Assembly (NCBI GenBank): GCA_947503785.1
Contig: CANNFB010000006.1
Coordinates: 1 to 64,000, forward strand
Source of the DNA: an uncultured Campylobacterales bacterium
Lineage (GTDB): Bacteria > Campylobacterota > Campylobacteria > Campylobacterales > Arcobacteraceae
Direction: 5' to 3'
Length of the DNA stretch: 64,000 nucleotides
A program made the position numbers and the translations under genes. The notes beneath the pieces are model-generated. The model was given only the letters and a program-made list of their open reading frames with translations. It ran no database searches and was not told where the DNA came from. Below are positions 52,573-64,000 of this stretch, piece by piece; within the stretch, counting starts at the first letter, position 1; every line of letters starts with the position of its first letter.

Positions 52573-54069
52573 CTAAAAGAATCCCATTGCATCTTTTGAG
52601 TAAGAAGTTAAAATATTTTTAGTATGTCTGTAAGAGTTTAACATCATCATGTGAGTTTCTCTACCGATACCTGATTTTTTGTATCCACCAAATGATGCAT
52701 GTGATGGGTACATGTGGTAACAATTCACCCAAACTCTACCAGCTTCAATTCCTCTTGAGAATTTATGTAATTGGTGAGCATCTCTTGACCATACCCCTGA
52801 ACCTAATCCGTAGATAGTATCATTTGCAATTTCAAGTGCTTCTTCTTCAGTTTTAAATGTAGTTACTGCTAAAACTGGTCCAAAAATTTCTTCTTGGAAG
52901 ATTCTCATTTTATTATGACCTTTGAAAATTGTTGGCTTAATATAGTTTCCGTTAGGGAAAGTTTTATTATCGTAAGCTTCACCACCAATTAGACATTCAG
53001 CTCCTTCTTCTTTACCTATTTTAATATAAGAAAGAATTTTCTCTTTTTGAGAAGTTGAACATTGTGCACCCATTTTAGTTGTAGGATCTAATGGATTTTC
53101 TTGTGTAATTGCTTCAATTCTTTCTAAACATCTTTTCATAAATGGTTCATAAATTGATTCTTGAATTAATGCTCTAGTTGGTGCTGTACAAACTTCACCA
53201 GAGTTAAATGCGAATAATACTAAACCTTCAATTGCTTTATCAAAGAATGCATCATCAGCATCCATAATTGATTCTAAGAAGATGTTTGGAGATTTTCCAC
53301 CAAGCTCTAATGTAGAAGGAATAATATTTTCAGTTGCATATTGCATAATTAACTGACCAGTTGTAGTTTCACCTGTAAATCCAACTTTTTTGATATCTGG
53401 ATGAGTTGATAAATGTTTACCAATTTTTCCACCAGCACCATTAATAATATTAACAAGACCTTTTGGAAGAACTTCTTGAATTGTTTCCATTAAGATTAAA
53501 ATTGACATTGGAGTTGCAGATGCAGGTTTTAATACAACAGTATTACCAGCTGCTAATGCAGGAGCAATTTTCCATGCTGCCATTAATAATGGGAAATTCC
53601 ATGGAATGATTTGAGCAACAACACCTAATGGTTCATGAATTTCTTGAGAAATTGTATTTTCATCTAAATCAGAAACCGCGCCAGATTCTCCTCTAATTAC
53701 AGAAGCAAAATATCTAAAGTGGTCAACAACCAAAGGAACATCAGCTGCTAAAGTTTCTCTAACTGCTTTACCATTATCTAAAGTTTCAGCAATTGCTAAA
53801 GCTTCTAAGTTAGCTTCAATAGCATCTGCTACTTTATTTAACATTGTTGATCTTTCAACTACTGAAGTGTGTTTAAATGTTTGAAAAGCTTCTAGTCCAG
53901 CTGCAACTGCTGCATCTACATCTGCTTCATTTGATCTTGGAATTCTTGTTAAAACTTCACCATCTACAGGTGATACATTATCAAAATATTCTCCACTTAG
54001 TGGGGCAACCCACTCTCCACCAATGAAGTTTTCGAATTGTGCTTTATATTGAGGTTTAGTATATGCCAT
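52573..54069 (-). CDS. NAD(P)-dependent aldehyde dehydrogenase (ExaC/AcoD-like)
   Basis: The 498-residue enzyme is a complete aldehyde dehydrogenase: NAD-binding IIPWNFPLLMAAWKIAPALA, general-base glutamate in LELGGKSPN, catalytic cysteine in NSGEVCTAPTR, and EEIFGPVLAV. It should oxidise acetaldehyde or a related aldehyde to the acid in the cytoplasm. Together with the PQQ alcohol dehydrogenase at the right edge it would complete alcohol oxidation. The start is supported by AAGGA seven bases upstream. Its promoter region contains four 11-bp repeats. Confidence 0.93.
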   Translation of the reverse strand: MAYTKPQYKAQFENFIGGEWVAPLSGEYFDNVSPVDGEVLTRIPRSNEADVDAAVAAGLEAFQTFKHTSVVERSTMLNKVADAIEANLEALAIAETLDNGKAVRETLAADVPLVVDHFRYFASVIRGESGAVSDLDENTISQEIHEPLGVVAQIIPWNFPLLMAAWKIAPALAAGNTVVLKPASATPMSILILMETIQEVLPKGLVNIINGAGGKIGKHLSTHPDIKKVGFTGETTTGQLIMQYATENIIPSTLELGGKSPNIFLESIMDADDAFFDKAIEGLVLFAFNSGEVCTAPTRALIQESIYEPFMKRCLERIEAITQENPLDPTTKMGAQCSTSQKEKILSYIKIGKEEGAECLIGGEAYDNKTFPNGNYIKPTIFKGHNKMRIFQEEIFGPVLAVTTFKTEEEALEIANDTIYGLGSGVWSRDAHQLHKFSRGIEAGRVWVNCYHMYPSHASFGGYKKSGIGRETHMMMLNSYRHTKNILTSYSKDAMGFF

Positions 54070-54142: not shown

Positions 54143-54148
54143 ATTCTA
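54143..54148 (-). promoter_or_regulatory. probable -10 box of the aldehyde dehydrogenase gene
   Basis: On the minus strand TAGAAT lies 74 bases before the ATG, with no good -35 box. The place of a -35 is taken by the repeat array that begins nine bases upstream. This layout is typical of promoters activated by OmpR/PhoB-type regulators. Confidence 0.45.
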
Positions 54149-54157
54149 CATGAGTTT

Positions 54158-54201
54158 TATAGCGTGAATTTAGCGTTTGTATAGCCTGAGTATAGCAGTG
54201 C
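54158..54201. promoter_or_regulatory. four 11-bp direct repeats (TATAGC units) in helical phase
   Basis: Units start at 54158 (TATAGCGTGAA), 54169 (TTTAGCGTTTG), 54180 (TATAGCCTGAG) and 54191 (TATAGCAGTGC), each exactly 11 bases after the last. Tandem 11-bp units are the kind of site bound by OmpR/PhoB-type response regulators. The array lies in the gap between the aldehyde dehydrogenase gene and the FIST kinase gene, whose partner regulator is of that type. Confidence 0.6.
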
Positions 54202-54273: not shown

Positions 54274-54282
54274 TGCTACAAT
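54274..54282 (+). promoter_or_regulatory. extended -10 promoter of the FIST kinase gene
   Basis: TGCTACAAT is a perfect extended -10 element (TG, one base, TACAAT) preceded by T-rich sequence. Transcription would start at about 54288-54290, which is the start codon itself, so the mRNA may be leaderless. Confidence 0.5.
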
Positions 54283-54287
54283 ATTTT

Positions 54288-56204
54288 ATGAAAACATTTA
54301 ACTATACTTATAATAATAAAGCACTAGATACCTTAATTGATTTTAATTCCTTTAAAAATCAAGATAATATATTAATTCAGATATTTTGTGGAGATAAAAA
54401 ACCCATCTTGAAAAAAATTGTTTCAACCTTGTTAAAGGAACTACCTCAAGCTATTTGTGTTGGTTCATCCACTGATGGAGAAATTAATAATAGTGAAATT
54501 ACTACTTGTAAAACTATTATCTCAATATCTACATTTGAAAATACAAAATTAAAAACAACACTTGTTAGAAATAAAGACTCTTTTAATAATGGTGTTGATT
54601 TAGCAAATAACTTATGTTCAGAAGATACGAAGCTACTTATACTATTTACTGATGGGGATAAGACAAATGGAGAATCCTTCTTAAAAGGTATACAATCAGT
54701 AAATGATAAAGTCATAATCTCAGGTGGAATGGCAGGAGATAATGCAAACTTTACGCAAACTTTTGTTTCATCACAAAATCAAATAATCACTAAAGGTGCA
54801 GTAGGTGTTGCCTTAGATTCTAAAATATTAAAAGTTCATAATGCATATAACTTTAACTGGTCACCAATTGGTATTGAACATACTATTGATAAAGTAACAG
54901 ATAATAGAGTTTATCAAATATCTGGAATGAAACCCTTAGATTTTTATGAAAAATATTTAGGAGAATATGTAGCAAAAGCACTTCCTGCAACTGGTATTGA
55001 GTTTCCTTTAATTGCAGAAAGAAATGGTCTTCCTGTAGCAAGGGCTGTTATACAAAAACATAAAGATGGAAGTTTAAGTTTTGCAGGAAACTTATATAAA
55101 GGAGATAGAGTAAAACTAGGATTTGGTAATGTTGAACTTATTATGAATAATCCATTAGAATCTTTATTTGATAGATCTAATATAAAAGATACACAATCTT
55201 TTTTTATATATTCATGTATGGCAAGAAGGAGATATATGCCAAGTATGGTTGATATTGAAATCAAGCCTTTTTCATTAATAGCTCCAACTTCTGGATTTTT
55301 TACTTATGGTGAATTTTATCATGATAATGGAAATAATGAATTATTAAATCAAACCTTTACAATTGTTGCCTTAAGCGAATTGGAAAATAATAAAAATGAT
55401 GAAAAAACTTCTTGTGAATTAGAAAAAGATACGCAAGCTATAAGTGAACATGCAAGAAGTTTACAGGCTTTAACACACTTAATACAACAGTCATCTGAAG
55501 ATTATAATAGACAATCAAAAGAGTTAGAAGAAGGGAAAATTTACGCACAAAATTTAGTAGACTCTCAAAAACAGTTTTTAAAACATGCTGTTCATGAAAC
55601 AAACACTCCCTTATCAATTATAATGGGAAATATTGAAATGTATGAGATGGAAAATGGAAAAAACAAACACTTATCAAATATTGAAGTTGCTATGAAAAAT
55701 ATCTCTAGTATATATGATGATTTAAGCTATTTAATTAAAAAAAACCAAGTAAATGAAGCAACTCATGAAATAAACTTAGTAGATTTTGTAAGAAGTAGAA
55801 TTGATTTTTTCTCACAATCTGCTATAAAGTTTAAATCTGAATTTGATTTCTCAGCACAAAGAGAAGAAATATTATTAGATTTCAATGAAATTAAACTTCA
55901 AAGAATAGTTGACAATAATTTAACAAATGCAATCAAATACTCACTTCCTAATGAAATAATACAGGTAAAGTTACATGTTAAAAATAATGAGTGTCACTTA
56001 ATAATAGAGAGTCGTTCTAAACAAATTTTAGATCAGCAAATGATATTTGAAGAGTATTATAGAGAACAAATAAATGACACTGAAGGTTTTGGCCTTGGGT
56101 TAAACTTAGTAAAACGTATTTGCAGTGAAGAAAATGTTGGAATACTATTAGCATCTGGTGAGAATTGGGCATCATTTACATATATATTTAAGGAAATAAA
56201 ATGA
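54288..56204 (+). CDS. cytoplasmic FIST-domain histidine kinase
   Basis: I place the start at the ATG at 54288, giving 638 residues. An in-frame start at 54177 would add a 37-residue hydrophobic stretch that overlaps the promoter and repeats. Residues of about 20-380 hold the FIST and FIST_C sensory domains (AICVGSSTDGEI, ISGGMAGDNANF, FIYSCMARRRY), which are thought to bind small molecules. A coiled coil leads to the H-box KHAVHETNTPLS with His436 and an ATPase domain with DNNLTNAIKYS and GFGLGLNLVKR. There is no membrane helix. It overlaps the response regulator gene by four bases (ATGA) and is divergent from the aldehyde dehydrogenase gene. Confidence 0.88.
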   Translation: MKTFNYTYNNKALDTLIDFNSFKNQDNILIQIFCGDKKPILKKIVSTLLKELPQAICVGSSTDGEINNSEITTCKTIISISTFENTKLKTTLVRNKDSFNNGVDLANNLCSEDTKLLILFTDGDKTNGESFLKGIQSVNDKVIISGGMAGDNANFTQTFVSSQNQIITKGAVGVALDSKILKVHNAYNFNWSPIGIEHTIDKVTDNRVYQISGMKPLDFYEKYLGEYVAKALPATGIEFPLIAERNGLPVARAVIQKHKDGSLSFAGNLYKGDRVKLGFGNVELIMNNPLESLFDRSNIKDTQSFFIYSCMARRRYMPSMVDIEIKPFSLIAPTSGFFTYGEFYHDNGNNELLNQTFTIVALSELENNKNDEKTSCELEKDTQAISEHARSLQALTHLIQQSSEDYNRQSKELEEGKIYAQNLVDSQKQFLKHAVHETNTPLSIIMGNIEMYEMENGKNKHLSNIEVAMKNISSIYDDLSYLIKKNQVNEATHEINLVDFVRSRIDFFSQSAIKFKSEFDFSAQREEILLDFNEIKLQRIVDNNLTNAIKYSLPNEIIQVKLHVKNNECHLIIESRSKQILDQQMIFEEYYREQINDTEGFGLGLNLVKRICSEENVGILLASGENWASFTYIFKEIK

Positions 56205-56860
56205 AGATATTACTATTAGAAGATGATGTAATGTTAAACGAGATGATTGAAGAATACTTATCATCAACAGGACATGTAGTACAAAGTACAACGACAGGGA
56301 AAGAGTGTTTAGAAGTATTAGATAAAGAGAAATTTGACTTATTAATATTAGATATTAACTTGCCAGATATTAACGGTTTTACAATACTAGAAACCTTACA
56401 TCAACAAAAAAGAATGATTCCAACTATTTATATTTCTGCTTTAATTGAAATAGAAGATATTTCAAGGGCCTTTGATATTGGATGTCATGATTATTTAAAA
56501 AAGCCCTTTCATTTAAAAGAGTTAACAATTAGAATAAATAAAATATTAAAAACAACAATAGTGCCACAAAAACATAAACGATTATCAAAAAACTACTCTT
56601 ATGATTCTGAGACTATGACACTTTTATTTAATAATGAACCTCAGATTTTACCAAAAAGACAAATTCAAATCATAGAATTACTTGCCCATAATAGAAGCTT
56701 AGTTGTTCAATATGATATGTTTAGAAACTATGTTTGGAATGATGATTTTATTGACAATGCTACAATAAGAGCAGAAGTAAATAGAGTTAAAAAAGTTTTA
56801 AAAGAAGATTTTATTAAAAATATTAGAGGAAGTGGATATATGGTAGAAAGGCCTAATTAA
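56201..56860 (+). CDS. OmpR-family response regulator
   Basis: The 219-residue regulator has a receiver domain (Glu7-Asp8-Asp9, phospho-acceptor Asp51 in LILDINLP, and conserved Lys in YLKKPF). A winged-helix DNA-binding domain follows, ending NIRGSGYMVERPN. It is the cognate partner of the FIST kinase by overlap. A likely target is the 11-bp repeat array at 54158-54201, since OmpR-family proteins bind tandem repeats as head-to-tail dimers. Confidence 0.92.
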   Translation: MKILLLEDDVMLNEMIEEYLSSTGHVVQSTTTGKECLEVLDKEKFDLLILDINLPDINGFTILETLHQQKRMIPTIYISALIEIEDISRAFDIGCHDYLKKPFHLKELTIRINKILKTTIVPQKHKRLSKNYSYDSETMTLLFNNEPQILPKRQIQIIELLAHNRSLVVQYDMFRNYVWNDDFIDNATIRAEVNRVKKVLKEDFIKNIRGSGYMVERPN

Positions 56861-59832: not shown

Positions 59833-60936
59833 TTAGCTAGATAATTCTAAAGAATTTTTTCTATTTCTATACCATATTTTTGCATCAGTAGTTCCTAAAC
59901 TCTCTTCTACTTTATCTGTAACTACATGATGAAATTTTGATTTAGAACAAACAGGATCTGCTTCATTCATATCTCCTGTTAGTGCAAAAGCTTGACATCT
60001 ACATCCCCCAAAGTCTTGCTCTTTCTCATCACAAGTTGCACATGTAGGATTCATCCATTTATCACCTCTAAAGTAATTAAAAGCATGAGATTCATTCCAA
60101 ATTTGTTCAATTGAGAAATCCTTTACATTTGGAAACTCTAAAGGTAAAGTATTAGCCGTATTACAAGGAAGGGCAACACCATCTGGATTTATAGTTAAAA
60201 ATGTAGTTCCCCATCCATTCATACAAGCTTTTGGTCTATCTGCAAAATAATCGGGAACCACAAAGAATACTTTCATAGGTTTTTCTTTACTTCTATAAAA
60301 ATCAGTTACTTTTTTTGCTTCATCTAATTGCTCTTGTGTAGGAAGTAATGCATTTATATTTTTTAAAGCCCAACCATAATATTGGATATTTGCAATTTCA
60401 AGATAATTACCACCAAGTTCATCAGCAAATTCGATAATATCAGCTACTTGATGAATATTTTGTCTTGTAATACAAGTATTAATAATAAGTTGAAGACCAG
60501 CTTCTTTTACTTCCTTTGCAAAGGCAATTTTTTCATCATAGGAATTTTTATTATTCGTAATTAAAGTCATAGTATTTCTATCATGAGATTGAATTCCAAG
60601 TTGAACAGTTTTAAGTCCAGCCTCTTTTAACTTCTTTACTATTCCTTTGGGAGCTCCAACACCTGAAGTTATAAGATTAGTGTAAAACTTTTTATCATTT
60701 GCATACTCTACAATTTTTACTAAGTCTTTATTTAATAATGGCTCTCCACCTGAAATACCAAGTTGAACTGCACCCATTTCTCTTGCTTCATCCATTACTC
60801 TAAACCAGTCTTTAGTACTCATAGCATCTTTTGTATTAGTAAAATCAAGTTGATTATAACAATATGCACATTCTAAGGGACATTTATGAGTTAGTTCTAG
60901 TAATATCCATAATGGTGGTTTTATTTCATTAGTCAT
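59833..60936 (-). CDS. pqqE: PQQ synthesis radical SAM enzyme PqqE
   Basis: PqqE makes the first carbon-carbon bond, between Glu and Tyr of the peptide PqqA, with PqqD as peptide chaperone. The 367-residue protein has the radical SAM cluster cysteines Cys19, Cys23 and Cys26 (KCPLECAYCYNQ), then GGEPLL, and a SPASM C-terminal domain with CNTANTLPL and CATCDEKEQDFGGCRCQAF for the auxiliary clusters. The length is normal. It overlaps pqqD by eight bases and is the last gene of the operon. Confidence 0.97.
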   Translation of the reverse strand: MTNEIKPPLWILLELTHKCPLECAYCYNQLDFTNTKDAMSTKDWFRVMDEAREMGAVQLGISGGEPLLNKDLVKIVEYANDKKFYTNLITSGVGAPKGIVKKLKEAGLKTVQLGIQSHDRNTMTLITNNKNSYDEKIAFAKEVKEAGLQLIINTCITRQNIHQVADIIEFADELGGNYLEIANIQYYGWALKNINALLPTQEQLDEAKKVTDFYRSKEKPMKVFFVVPDYFADRPKACMNGWGTTFLTINPDGVALPCNTANTLPLEFPNVKDFSIEQIWNESHAFNYFRGDKWMNPTCATCDEKEQDFGGCRCQAFALTGDMNEADPVCSKSKFHHVVTDKVEESLGTTDAKIWYRNRKNSLELSS

Positions 60937-61198
60937 TGTAAATTACCCACTTTCTGCTCATTGCATCTTCAATAAATTCACTAACGTCATTTATTAAATC
61001 ACTTGTATTAAACTTTTTTTCTAAAAGTTTTGATATATCTTGTGCACTGTTTTTCCCATCACATAAATTCATAATTTCTCCAGCACTTTGACTTAACTGA
61101 ACCATTCCCTCAGGATATAGTATTACGTAACAATTTTGTTTTTCTTCCCATTGTAATTGAAAGTGCTCATTAATCGCAAGTGATTTTTCTAGTTGCAT
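60929..61198 (-). CDS. pqqD: PqqA-binding chaperone PqqD
   Basis: The 89-residue protein matches PqqD ([27 protein letters not shown], and DAMSRKWVI). It holds the PqqA peptide for PqqE. The ATG at 61198 has AAGGA five bases upstream, which supports this start even though it overlaps the end of pqqC by 29 bases. Confidence 0.94.
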
Positions 61199-61910
61199 TA
61201 CAATCCTTAATATTAAAATATGGTGGTCTTTTTAATTCGTATGCTAAGTATAAAGCATCACACATTGTCCATAGAATATCTAGTTTAAATTGTAATATTT
61301 CACAAGCTCTACTTTGTAATTCAACTGTATCAAACTCAACTAAAGTCATAGAAAGGCCATGTTGAACATCACGTCTAGCTTCACTTAACCTTTTTTGGAA
61401 ATACTTTAATCCGTCTTGTTCTATCCATGGATAGTTTTTAGGCCAAGTATCAAGTCTTTGTTGATGAATTTGAGGTGCAAACATTTCAGTTAAAGATGAC
61501 ATTGCAGCTTCTTTCCAAGGAGCTCTTCTCGCAAAGTTCACATAAGCATCAACTGCAAACCTAACTGCTGGCAATACAAACTTATGAGAAAGTAAATCTT
61601 CTTTTTCTAAGCCAACAGCAACTCCTAAATCAAGCCAAGCTTCAATTCCACCACCAACACTATCATGATCTAAAATTCTATCAACCCATTTTCTTCTATC
61701 TTCAATTGGAGGATTATTTGACATAATTGCAGCATCTTTAATTGGAATTGCACATTGATAATAAAATCTATTTGCTACCCAACCTTGAATCTCTTCTTTA
61801 GTACAAGTACCTTCATACATTCTTACATGAAAAGGATGGTGAATATGATACATTGAACCCATATCTCTTAATTTTTTTTCAAAATCTTCTTTACTTAGTA
61901 ATTCATTCAT
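61170..61910 (-). CDS. pqqC: pyrroloquinoline-quinone synthase PqqC
   Basis: PqqC carries out the final ring closure and oxidation to PQQ without a cofactor. The 246-residue product starts best at the ATG at 61910, with AAAAGGA seven bases before it; earlier in-frame starts lie too near or before that site. Conserved stretches are [34 protein letters not shown] and [12 protein letters not shown]. It lies 16 bp after pqqB. Confidence 0.96.
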
Positions 61911-61926
61911 TTTCATTTCCTTTTCT

Positions 61927-62844
61927 TTATATTTCAATACTCATACCATCATATGAAACTTCAATTCCATGTGAAATAAGCTCTTTATATTCATCATTTG
62001 CTTCATCTAATATTGGATTAGTATTATTAATGTGAATTAGTATCTTTCTTGGTTTTTCTAATTGGTCAAATATTTTAATTAAGCCATTTTCACCACTTAA
62101 TGGTAGGTGTCCCATATCAGTTCCTAACTTATTTGAAAACTCACCTTTTATCATTTCATCATTTGTCCAAAGAGTTCCTTCAATTAATAGAACATCTGCT
62201 TTCTTCATTTCTTCAAAAACATGGTCCTCTAAAACTCCAAGACCTGGTAGATAAAACAATCTTTTTCCTGTATTTTTATTTACTACAGTAATACCAATAT
62301 TATCACCACTTCTAGGTTTATCTCTATAAGAAGAGTATGGTGGAGCATTTGAGATTAAGGCATGTGCATAAAACTCATAATTTGGCATTACTGGAATTTC
62401 AAACTTTGTAGTACTATTGGGAATAATTTCATTCCACTTTGTACCTCCACCATCCCAGTGTTGTAACATCTTAAATAAAGGGAAAGAAGTATTCAGTTCT
62501 TCATTTACTTCTTTAGTACAATAAACTTCATGAGGACAGCCTTCTCTTAACATTAAAAGTCCAGTTGTATGGTCTATTTGTCCATCATTAAAAACTATTG
62601 CTTTAATTTTAGTTTCTCTTTTTTTTGTTGGATGTAAAAAAGGAGAATTATGTATTTGCTCTAAAATATCAGGGGATGTGTTAAATAACACCCAGTTTTC
62701 ACCATCTTCACTAATAGTAATCGAAGATTGTGTTCTTCTTTTAATTGTTTTTTTACCTTCTCTATAACCTCTACAGTTATCACAGTTACAATTAAATTGA
62801 GGAAGACCTCCTCCAGCACCTGAGCCTAAAACTTGAATTTTCAA
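61927..62844 (-). CDS. pqqB: PQQ biosynthesis protein PqqB
   Basis: The 305-residue protein is a metallo-beta-lactamase-fold oxygenase that hydroxylates the Glu-Tyr intermediate. It shows the family start [21 protein letters not shown], the metal-site region [18 protein letters not shown] and [12 protein letters not shown]. The length is normal. It is separated from pqqA by a terminator with a TTCG loop. Confidence 0.96.
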
Positions 62845-63064: not shown

Positions 63065-64000
63065 TTATTTGTGCAACTTAAACACGTGAACTGATCCACC
63101 TTGATTTAAATACTTAACAGTTTTTGCAACTTCACCACCCCATAAAGGAACAGCTCCACCCCAACCTGCAACGATTGCAATGTATTGTTCACCATCTTGT
63201 TTCCAAGTAATTGGAGAACCTACGATTCCAGTACCAACATTAAATTTCCAAACTATTTCACCAGTTTGATCATCAAATGCCATAAATTTACCTTCAGGAG
63301 TACCTGTGAATACAAGTCCACCACCAGTAGTTAAAACTCCACCCCATAATGGTGCATTGTTTTTATAAGTCCATTTAATCTCACCAGTTTTAGGATCAAC
63401 AGCTTTTAAAGCTCCGATATGATCTTCAAATGTTGGTTTAATAGTAAATCCAGCACCTAAGTAAGCAGCACCTTTTTTATATGCAACAGGCTTATTCCAA
63501 ATATCCATTCCCCACTCATTTGCAGGAACATAAAATAATCCTGTATCTTGTGAAAATGCCATTGGATTCCAGTTTTTACCACCTAAGAAAGATGGAGTTG
63601 CATAGACAGTTTTACCTTGTTTTTCACCAACTGGTTTTCCAGGTCTATTATCTTCATTTACAATTGGACGACCGTCTTTATCCATACCACTTGCCCAAGT
63701 AACATTTTCTACAAAAGGTACTGATCTAATATACTTTCCAGTAACTCTATCTAATACATAGAAGAACCCATTTTTATCGGCAGTAGCTCCAGCTTTTACC
63801 ATTTTTCCATTTTTGTCTTTATATTCAAAAGCTACAAATTCAGAAATACCATCATAATCCCAACCATCATTTGGAGTTGTTTGGAAATGCCAAACAATTT
63901 TTCCAGTATCTGGATTAATTGCTACTCTTGAAGCTGAATAAAGGTTATCACCTGGTCTATCATGTGAATTCCAAGGAGAAGGATTTCCTGTTGGAACATA
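63065..64000 (-). CDS. PQQ-dependent alcohol dehydrogenase (5' part beyond window)
   Basis: The frame stays open to the right edge; about 311 C-terminal residues are visible. They show the propeller tryptophan motifs of the PQQ family ([30 protein letters not shown]), the substrate-site stretch [18 protein letters not shown] and [14 protein letters not shown]. Catalytic Asp (codon 63857-63859) is followed two residues later by a second Asp (63851-63853), the DYD pattern of lanthanide-dependent XoxF and PedH-type enzymes. The protein should be periplasmic and pass electrons to a c cytochrome. Ethanol-type and methanol-type enzymes cannot be separated from this part. pqqA follows directly. Confidence 0.9.

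Follow-up and report, generated by a model that had tools for sequence, protein, structure and literature searches.

Response regulators of the OmpR/PhoB type bind to direct repeats with a period of about 11 bp in a head-to-tail arrangement. The closest described system is that of PceP (RR2) in Sulfurospirillum, a regulator that in gel shift assays binds CTATA repeats with an 11-bp period, most of them overlapping the -35 box, and for which the authors gave the consensus CTATW-N17-CTATW (PMC7755780). Other examples are KdpE, with 6-bp half-sites located 5 bp apart, TTTATA-N5-TTTACA (PMC3264566), and the PhoP of M. tuberculosis, which acts cooperatively on repeats with an 11-bp period, made of 7-bp units and a 4-bp spacer, and binds three or four units tighter than two (PMC4832192).

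We have analyzed a window of 64 kb from an uncultured Campylobacterales bacterium of the family Arcobacteraceae, in which an array of this type is found in front of an aldehyde dehydrogenase gene (52573-54069, minus strand; Pfam Aldedh). Throughout, genes were named from Pfam and NCBIfam matches or by inspection. The dehydrogenase is nearest to the acetaldehyde dehydrogenase ExaC, with an NCBIfam score of 814 bits that is below the model cut-off of 900. On the other side of the array, and on the plus strand, are a sensor kinase with FIST, FIST_C, HisKA and HATPase_c domains (54288-56204) and an OmpR/PhoB-type response regulator with a receiver and a winged-helix Trans_reg_C domain (56201-56860), which by domain content and co-occurrence is the proposed binder of the array. 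The kinase gene has its own extended -10 element, TGCTACAAT (54274-54282, plus strand), 5 nt before the ATG. Since this element, of the type TGnTACAAT, is conserved and ends 5-7 nt before the ATG in 55/59 relatives, the kinase mRNA is probably leaderless. Farther along the window, a PQQ-dependent dehydrogenase of the methanol/ethanol type (63065-64000, minus strand; TIGR03075, 770 bits) runs past its end, and downstream of it there are pqqE-, pqqD-, pqqC- and pqqB-like genes (59833-62844, minus strand), named by inspection from gene order and sequence, that are possible indirect targets through read-through from the PQQ dehydrogenase.

Like the operators of PhoB, KdpE and PhoP, which are bound in tandem and head-to-tail, the array consists of direct-repeat units of 6-7 bp with an 11-bp period, although the unit sequence, the bacteria and the regulons are others. 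The resemblance to PceP includes the CTATA units every 11 bp that are common to both arrays, the OmpR family of the regulator and the taxonomic order. However, PceP is only 26% identical to the FIST regulator, has a different recognition helix (GPAIRTLVKDLRKHL), works with a kinase of another type and controls a tetrachloroethene regulon. On the basis of the low identity and the different helix, PceP was rejected as an orthologue. The original prediction had called this an undescribed operator; in the light of PceP the type of operator is known (PMC7755780), and what stands as undescribed, within the open-licence PMC literature, is the regulon. A BumR paper that was also consulted gives no operator sequence.

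The same prediction had placed four repeats in 11-bp phase at 54158-54201, nine bases from a -10 box of the dehydrogenase, and both points held. The plus-strand units TATAGC, TTTAGC, TATAGC and TATAGC begin at 54158, 54169, 54180 and 54191, in exact 11-bp steps. The functional reading is that of the minus strand, where GCTATA-CTCAG-GCTATA-CAAAC-GCTAAA-TTCAC-GCTATA-AAACTCATG-TAGAAT is oriented towards the aldehyde dehydrogenase, so that the array occupies the -35 region at a fixed distance from the -10 box. This box (TAGAAT, 54143-54148) is separated from the proximal unit by a 9-bp spacer (54149-54157); a TAnnnT is equally placed in the great majority of the homologous promoters, and 9 is the dominant distance (67 cases). 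The two promoter-proximal units, GCTATA (unit 1, 54158-54163) and GCTAAA (unit 2, 54169-54174), hold 1.83 bits per base over 60 sequences and 1.74 bits per base, respectively. The two distal ones, both GCTATA (unit 3, 54180-54185; unit 4, 54191-54196), appear to be auxiliary. They are kept in most relatives, with 0.79 and 0.62 bits per base, and are absent in several genomes (G032, G033, G034, G058, G060, G065 and G089). Overall, column information was 1.7-1.8 bits in the proximal units, 0.6-0.8 in the distal units and 0.2-0.4 in the flanks. The only near-invariant parts were thus the proximal pair and the N9 spacing, and we have defined the core as GCTAWA-N5-GCTAWA-N9-TAnnnT. Upstream of the aldehyde and PQQ dehydrogenases of the relatives, pairs of GCTAWA were found at lags of 11 (133 pairs), 22 (63) and 33 (35), all other lags having at most 9. 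Within the window, the four-unit pattern (up to three mismatches) was found at this single place, in two registers, and 100 dinucleotide shuffles gave 0 matches, the chance expectation also being 0.

Pattern searches of the complete assembly retrieved the core at five exact and nine one-mismatch places, compared with two for the reversed control pattern. Six core sites are located on contig C6, all of them within the cluster of aldehyde and PQQ-alcohol dehydrogenases. Besides the aldehyde dehydrogenase promoter (54143), there is a copy upstream of the PQQ alcohol dehydrogenase (C6:64881-64912, one mismatch, N9 to TATACT), where the original prediction had suggested looking for one. The remaining four make up two divergent pairs. 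Of the pair at C6 67900/67945, one site faces an operon that encodes a small protein, a YVTN propeller and an ABC ATPase and permease and extends in the direction of the PQQ dehydrogenase, and the other faces a gene for a periplasmic binding protein. The pair at C6 72085/72138 lies before the gene of an ABC substrate-binding protein and that of a c-type cytochrome. Elsewhere, an exact core (C8:27637) precedes a gene for a pyridine-nucleotide-disulfide oxidoreductase, first suspected to be a type II NADH dehydrogenase and identified at class level only, and a one-mismatch core (C2:245148) precedes a NosR-like/ApbE-like pair. The tie of these two targets to aldehyde is only indirect, yet both sites are probably real, because relatives have the two kinds of site before the same genes. 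The view of the array as the operator of the dehydrogenase was therefore supported but too narrow: it belongs to a regulon that in this genome comprises six promoters or more.

The gene content of the C6 cluster recalls that of the ped/exa system of Pseudomonas, with a PQQ alcohol dehydrogenase, an ExaC-type aldehyde dehydrogenase, a cytochrome, ABC genes and two-component control, which is here a prediction. The regulators of ped/exa belong to another class, the LuxR type, and a review of the ped genes makes no mention of FIST or OmpR. A possible link of FIST to ped/exa control is hinted at by the NCBIfam model 'near_NosP_CTERM' (NahK/ErcS family). NosP itself senses NO as a free-standing protein, acting through a separate kinase, and it has FIST and FIST_C sensory domains like the kinase of the window, in which, however, the FIST part and the kinase form one protein, whose partner is a regulator of DNA-binding type. 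A related kinase (L248) gave a weak match to the NosP model, 44.7 bits, below the cut-off of 450.

Evidence for the regulator involved comes from the distribution of the core over 104 genomes of Arcobacteraceae, among which the close relatives include Poseidonibacter and Arcobacter. A clear gap in the scores served to define orthologues of the kinase/regulator pair (kinase at least about 480 bits, regulator E <= 1e-98; the lowest-scoring kinases, near 480 bits, are copies cut by contig ends), which was present in 62 genomes. The exact core was found in 56 of the 104 and the reversed pattern in none. The core was present in 55/62 genomes with the pair versus 1/42 without it (Fisher p = 2e-20, a value that ignores kinship). 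Of the seven genomes that have the pair but no exact core, G077 is cut by a contig end and the other six have variants or arrays that are slightly degenerate. It had been named beforehand as a refutation that relatives keeping both genes might not conserve the array; in fact the core scored at least 11/12 in every one of the 61 genomes with the pair that were examined. Conversely, the 13 examined relatives that have the aldehyde dehydrogenase elsewhere and lack the pair showed no core (13/13), their best two-unit scores being 8-10/12. The PQQ dehydrogenase was present in 31 genomes, every one of them with the pair, and the core was found at 33/33 of its promoters examined. From comparison of sequences, then, the array is a real, conserved control element common to the aldehyde dehydrogenase and the PQQ ethanol-oxidation genes, and the co-occurrence supports the initial idea of an OmpR/PhoB-type operator controlled by the FIST pair.

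Some relatives carry the core at other genes. In three Arcobacteraceae it heads eutBC, coding for ethanolamine ammonia-lyase (L220:1504, L221:1659 and L222:2078), and in three genomes of a single genus of the family it heads pta-ackA (L227:1734, L228:1768 and L229:1853). The products of these genes form or consume acetaldehyde or acetyl phosphate. Across the order, exact cores were rare outside Arcobacteraceae. One case was family f20 (genus g39, presumably Sulfurospirillum itself, since it has the reductive dehalogenase region known from that genus). In 12/12 f20 genomes examined the FIST pair is divergent from a molybdopterin aldehyde oxidoreductase with the core in between; six of the cores match exactly, and the other six differ by one mismatch in the second unit. 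The f20 regulator is 61-65% identical to that of the window, while the oxidoreductase (907 residues and 1588 bits to NF045668 in the one scanned) is unrelated to the NAD-dependent aldehyde dehydrogenase. In family f16, one genome has a core upstream of the gene for an ABC protein in a cluster of similar kind; in another (G174), the site heads genes for a porin-like protein and an SSS-type permease and adjoins a related regulator, here accompanied by a different kinase. Site-like matches before kdsB-type and hydrogenase-type genes in other families (G379, G454, G122 and G232) were judged to be due to chance or to other regulators. The theme shared by the targets is C2-aldehyde and acetate metabolism.

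Because the core tracks the pair and its targets are aldehyde/C2 genes in two families, the array is very likely the operator of an acetaldehyde/C2-oxidation regulon, worked, probably in an activating sense, by the FIST kinase and the OmpR/PhoB-type regulator. In the mechanism that we propose, the kinase would sense a signal of C2-aldehyde metabolism and phosphorylate the adjoining regulator, which would bind head-to-tail to the GCTAWA units at their 11-bp intervals, with one protomer on each. The bound regulator would take the place of a -35 element and recruit RNA polymerase to the -10 box located 9 bp downstream. Two units would be enough at most promoters; the four at the aldehyde dehydrogenase would accommodate two dimers and give tighter binding, by analogy with M. 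tuberculosis PhoP and its preference for three or four units. We infer the binding itself, activation as opposed to repression and the identity of the signal.

The main binder of a real operator might instead be another regulator of the same clade, or the site might be shared. This genome has a second FIST kinase/OmpR regulator pair (L144:6436-9014, contig C9:96453-99013; kinase 52% and regulator 65-66% identical), with no core array near it. On contig C15 (L267:1144), a related regulator and its kinase adjoin a gene for an SSS-type symporter, in front of which there is a weaker site, GCTACC-N5-GCTATA-N9-TATACT. The C15 regulator is 55% identical to the FIST regulator. The recognition helices of the C9 and C15 regulators (NATIRAEINRLKK and NPTIRAEISRLKK) are similar to that of the FIST regulator (NATIRAEVNRVKK), and weaker or single sites before genes of acetate-symporter type, at L267 and in G102, a genome without the FIST pair, would suit a role for such regulators. 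The G102 site, before an operon with an ActP-type acetate symporter, probably does belong to a related regulator, and GCTAWA may perhaps be an operator type of the whole clade. However, most genomes of the family have a C15-type regulator (E about 1e-70) and yet 41/42 genomes without the FIST pair lack the exact core, the C9 paralogue is confined to a few genomes, and those with a single core have it exactly beside the FIST pair. Control of the array mainly by these paralogues is thus improbable. Most orthologues of the FIST regulator have a recognition helix nearly identical to NATIRAEVNRVKKVLKE, and three regulators with a changed helix, DISTIRSEINR[IV]KK[IV]LKE (G056, G062 and G063), go together with arrays that are among the most degenerate, a suggestive coincidence that involves one clade only. 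Deep branches of the regulator tree were weak.

With the FIST regulator as the binder, its effect could also be negative, by occluding the -35 region until the signal relieves the repression, and the array does sit where RNA polymerase would contact that region. However, a promoter scan found no sigma-70-type match and no consensus -35 at the aldehyde dehydrogenase promoter, and the rigid distance of 9 bp to the -10 box across many promoters suits activation by contact; PceP, with similar geometry, was inferred to be an activator. Repression is consequently unlikely, and the FIST regulator probably activates the C2 regulon. Much less plausible is that the array serves autoregulation of the divergent kinase gene, with which it shares the intergenic region: its orientation and 9-bp spacing point to the dehydrogenase, many genes headed by cores have no kinase nearby, and in G041 and G042, where the pair and the aldehyde dehydrogenase are on different contigs, the core stays at the dehydrogenase. 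We have rejected autoregulation on the grounds of orientation and these two genomes. A chance or low-complexity repeat without function, conceivable in an AT-rich region, is refuted by conservation of the core and of the 11-bp lags in relatives, with nothing comparable in shuffled sequence or, as a reversed pattern, in the family.

As for the signal of the proposed activating system, control by aldehyde or alcohol had been predicted. The aldehyde/C2 step is the common thread; the alcohol part did not stand, eutBC for example not being an alcohol gene. Since, in addition, genomes with one core site carry it at an aldehyde-oxidizing enzyme, the most economical signal would be acetaldehyde or a close C2 metabolite. 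That the FIST domain itself senses such a compound directly is a tentative proposal, and one that could well prove wrong: the operator and the pair follow two unrelated families of aldehyde-oxidizing enzymes and the acetaldehyde-producing eutBC, but FIST domains elsewhere have been reported to bind NO or heme. What they sense, aldehyde versus NO or heme, becomes in this way a testable question. If true, an acetaldehyde-sensing FIST would provide a small-metabolite ligand together with a full regulon, a combination that we did not find described in the open-licence PMC literature. Neither did that literature contain this C2 gene set with its control, or any earlier operator, regulator or regulon for the oxidation of ethanol, ethanolamine and aldehyde in Arcobacteraceae, to which, with their relatives, all three can now be provisionally assigned. 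In two families, the pair and operator accompany two non-homologous aldehyde-oxidizing enzymes, which suggests a control system linked to the reaction that is catalysed and not to a particular enzyme.

The f20 genomes also contain the intergenic site of PceP, which reads CCTATA-N5-CCTATA-N5-CCTATA (L274:11438 and equivalents). The published consensus, CTATW-N17-CTATW, passes over the central one of these three units, so that a period of 11 bp may describe the site better. Finally, the number of units in an array seems to vary quickly, since G350 has up to five GCTATA units spaced 11 bp apart before its molybdenum aldehyde oxidoreductase (L251:6218-6270) and its close relatives have two or three.
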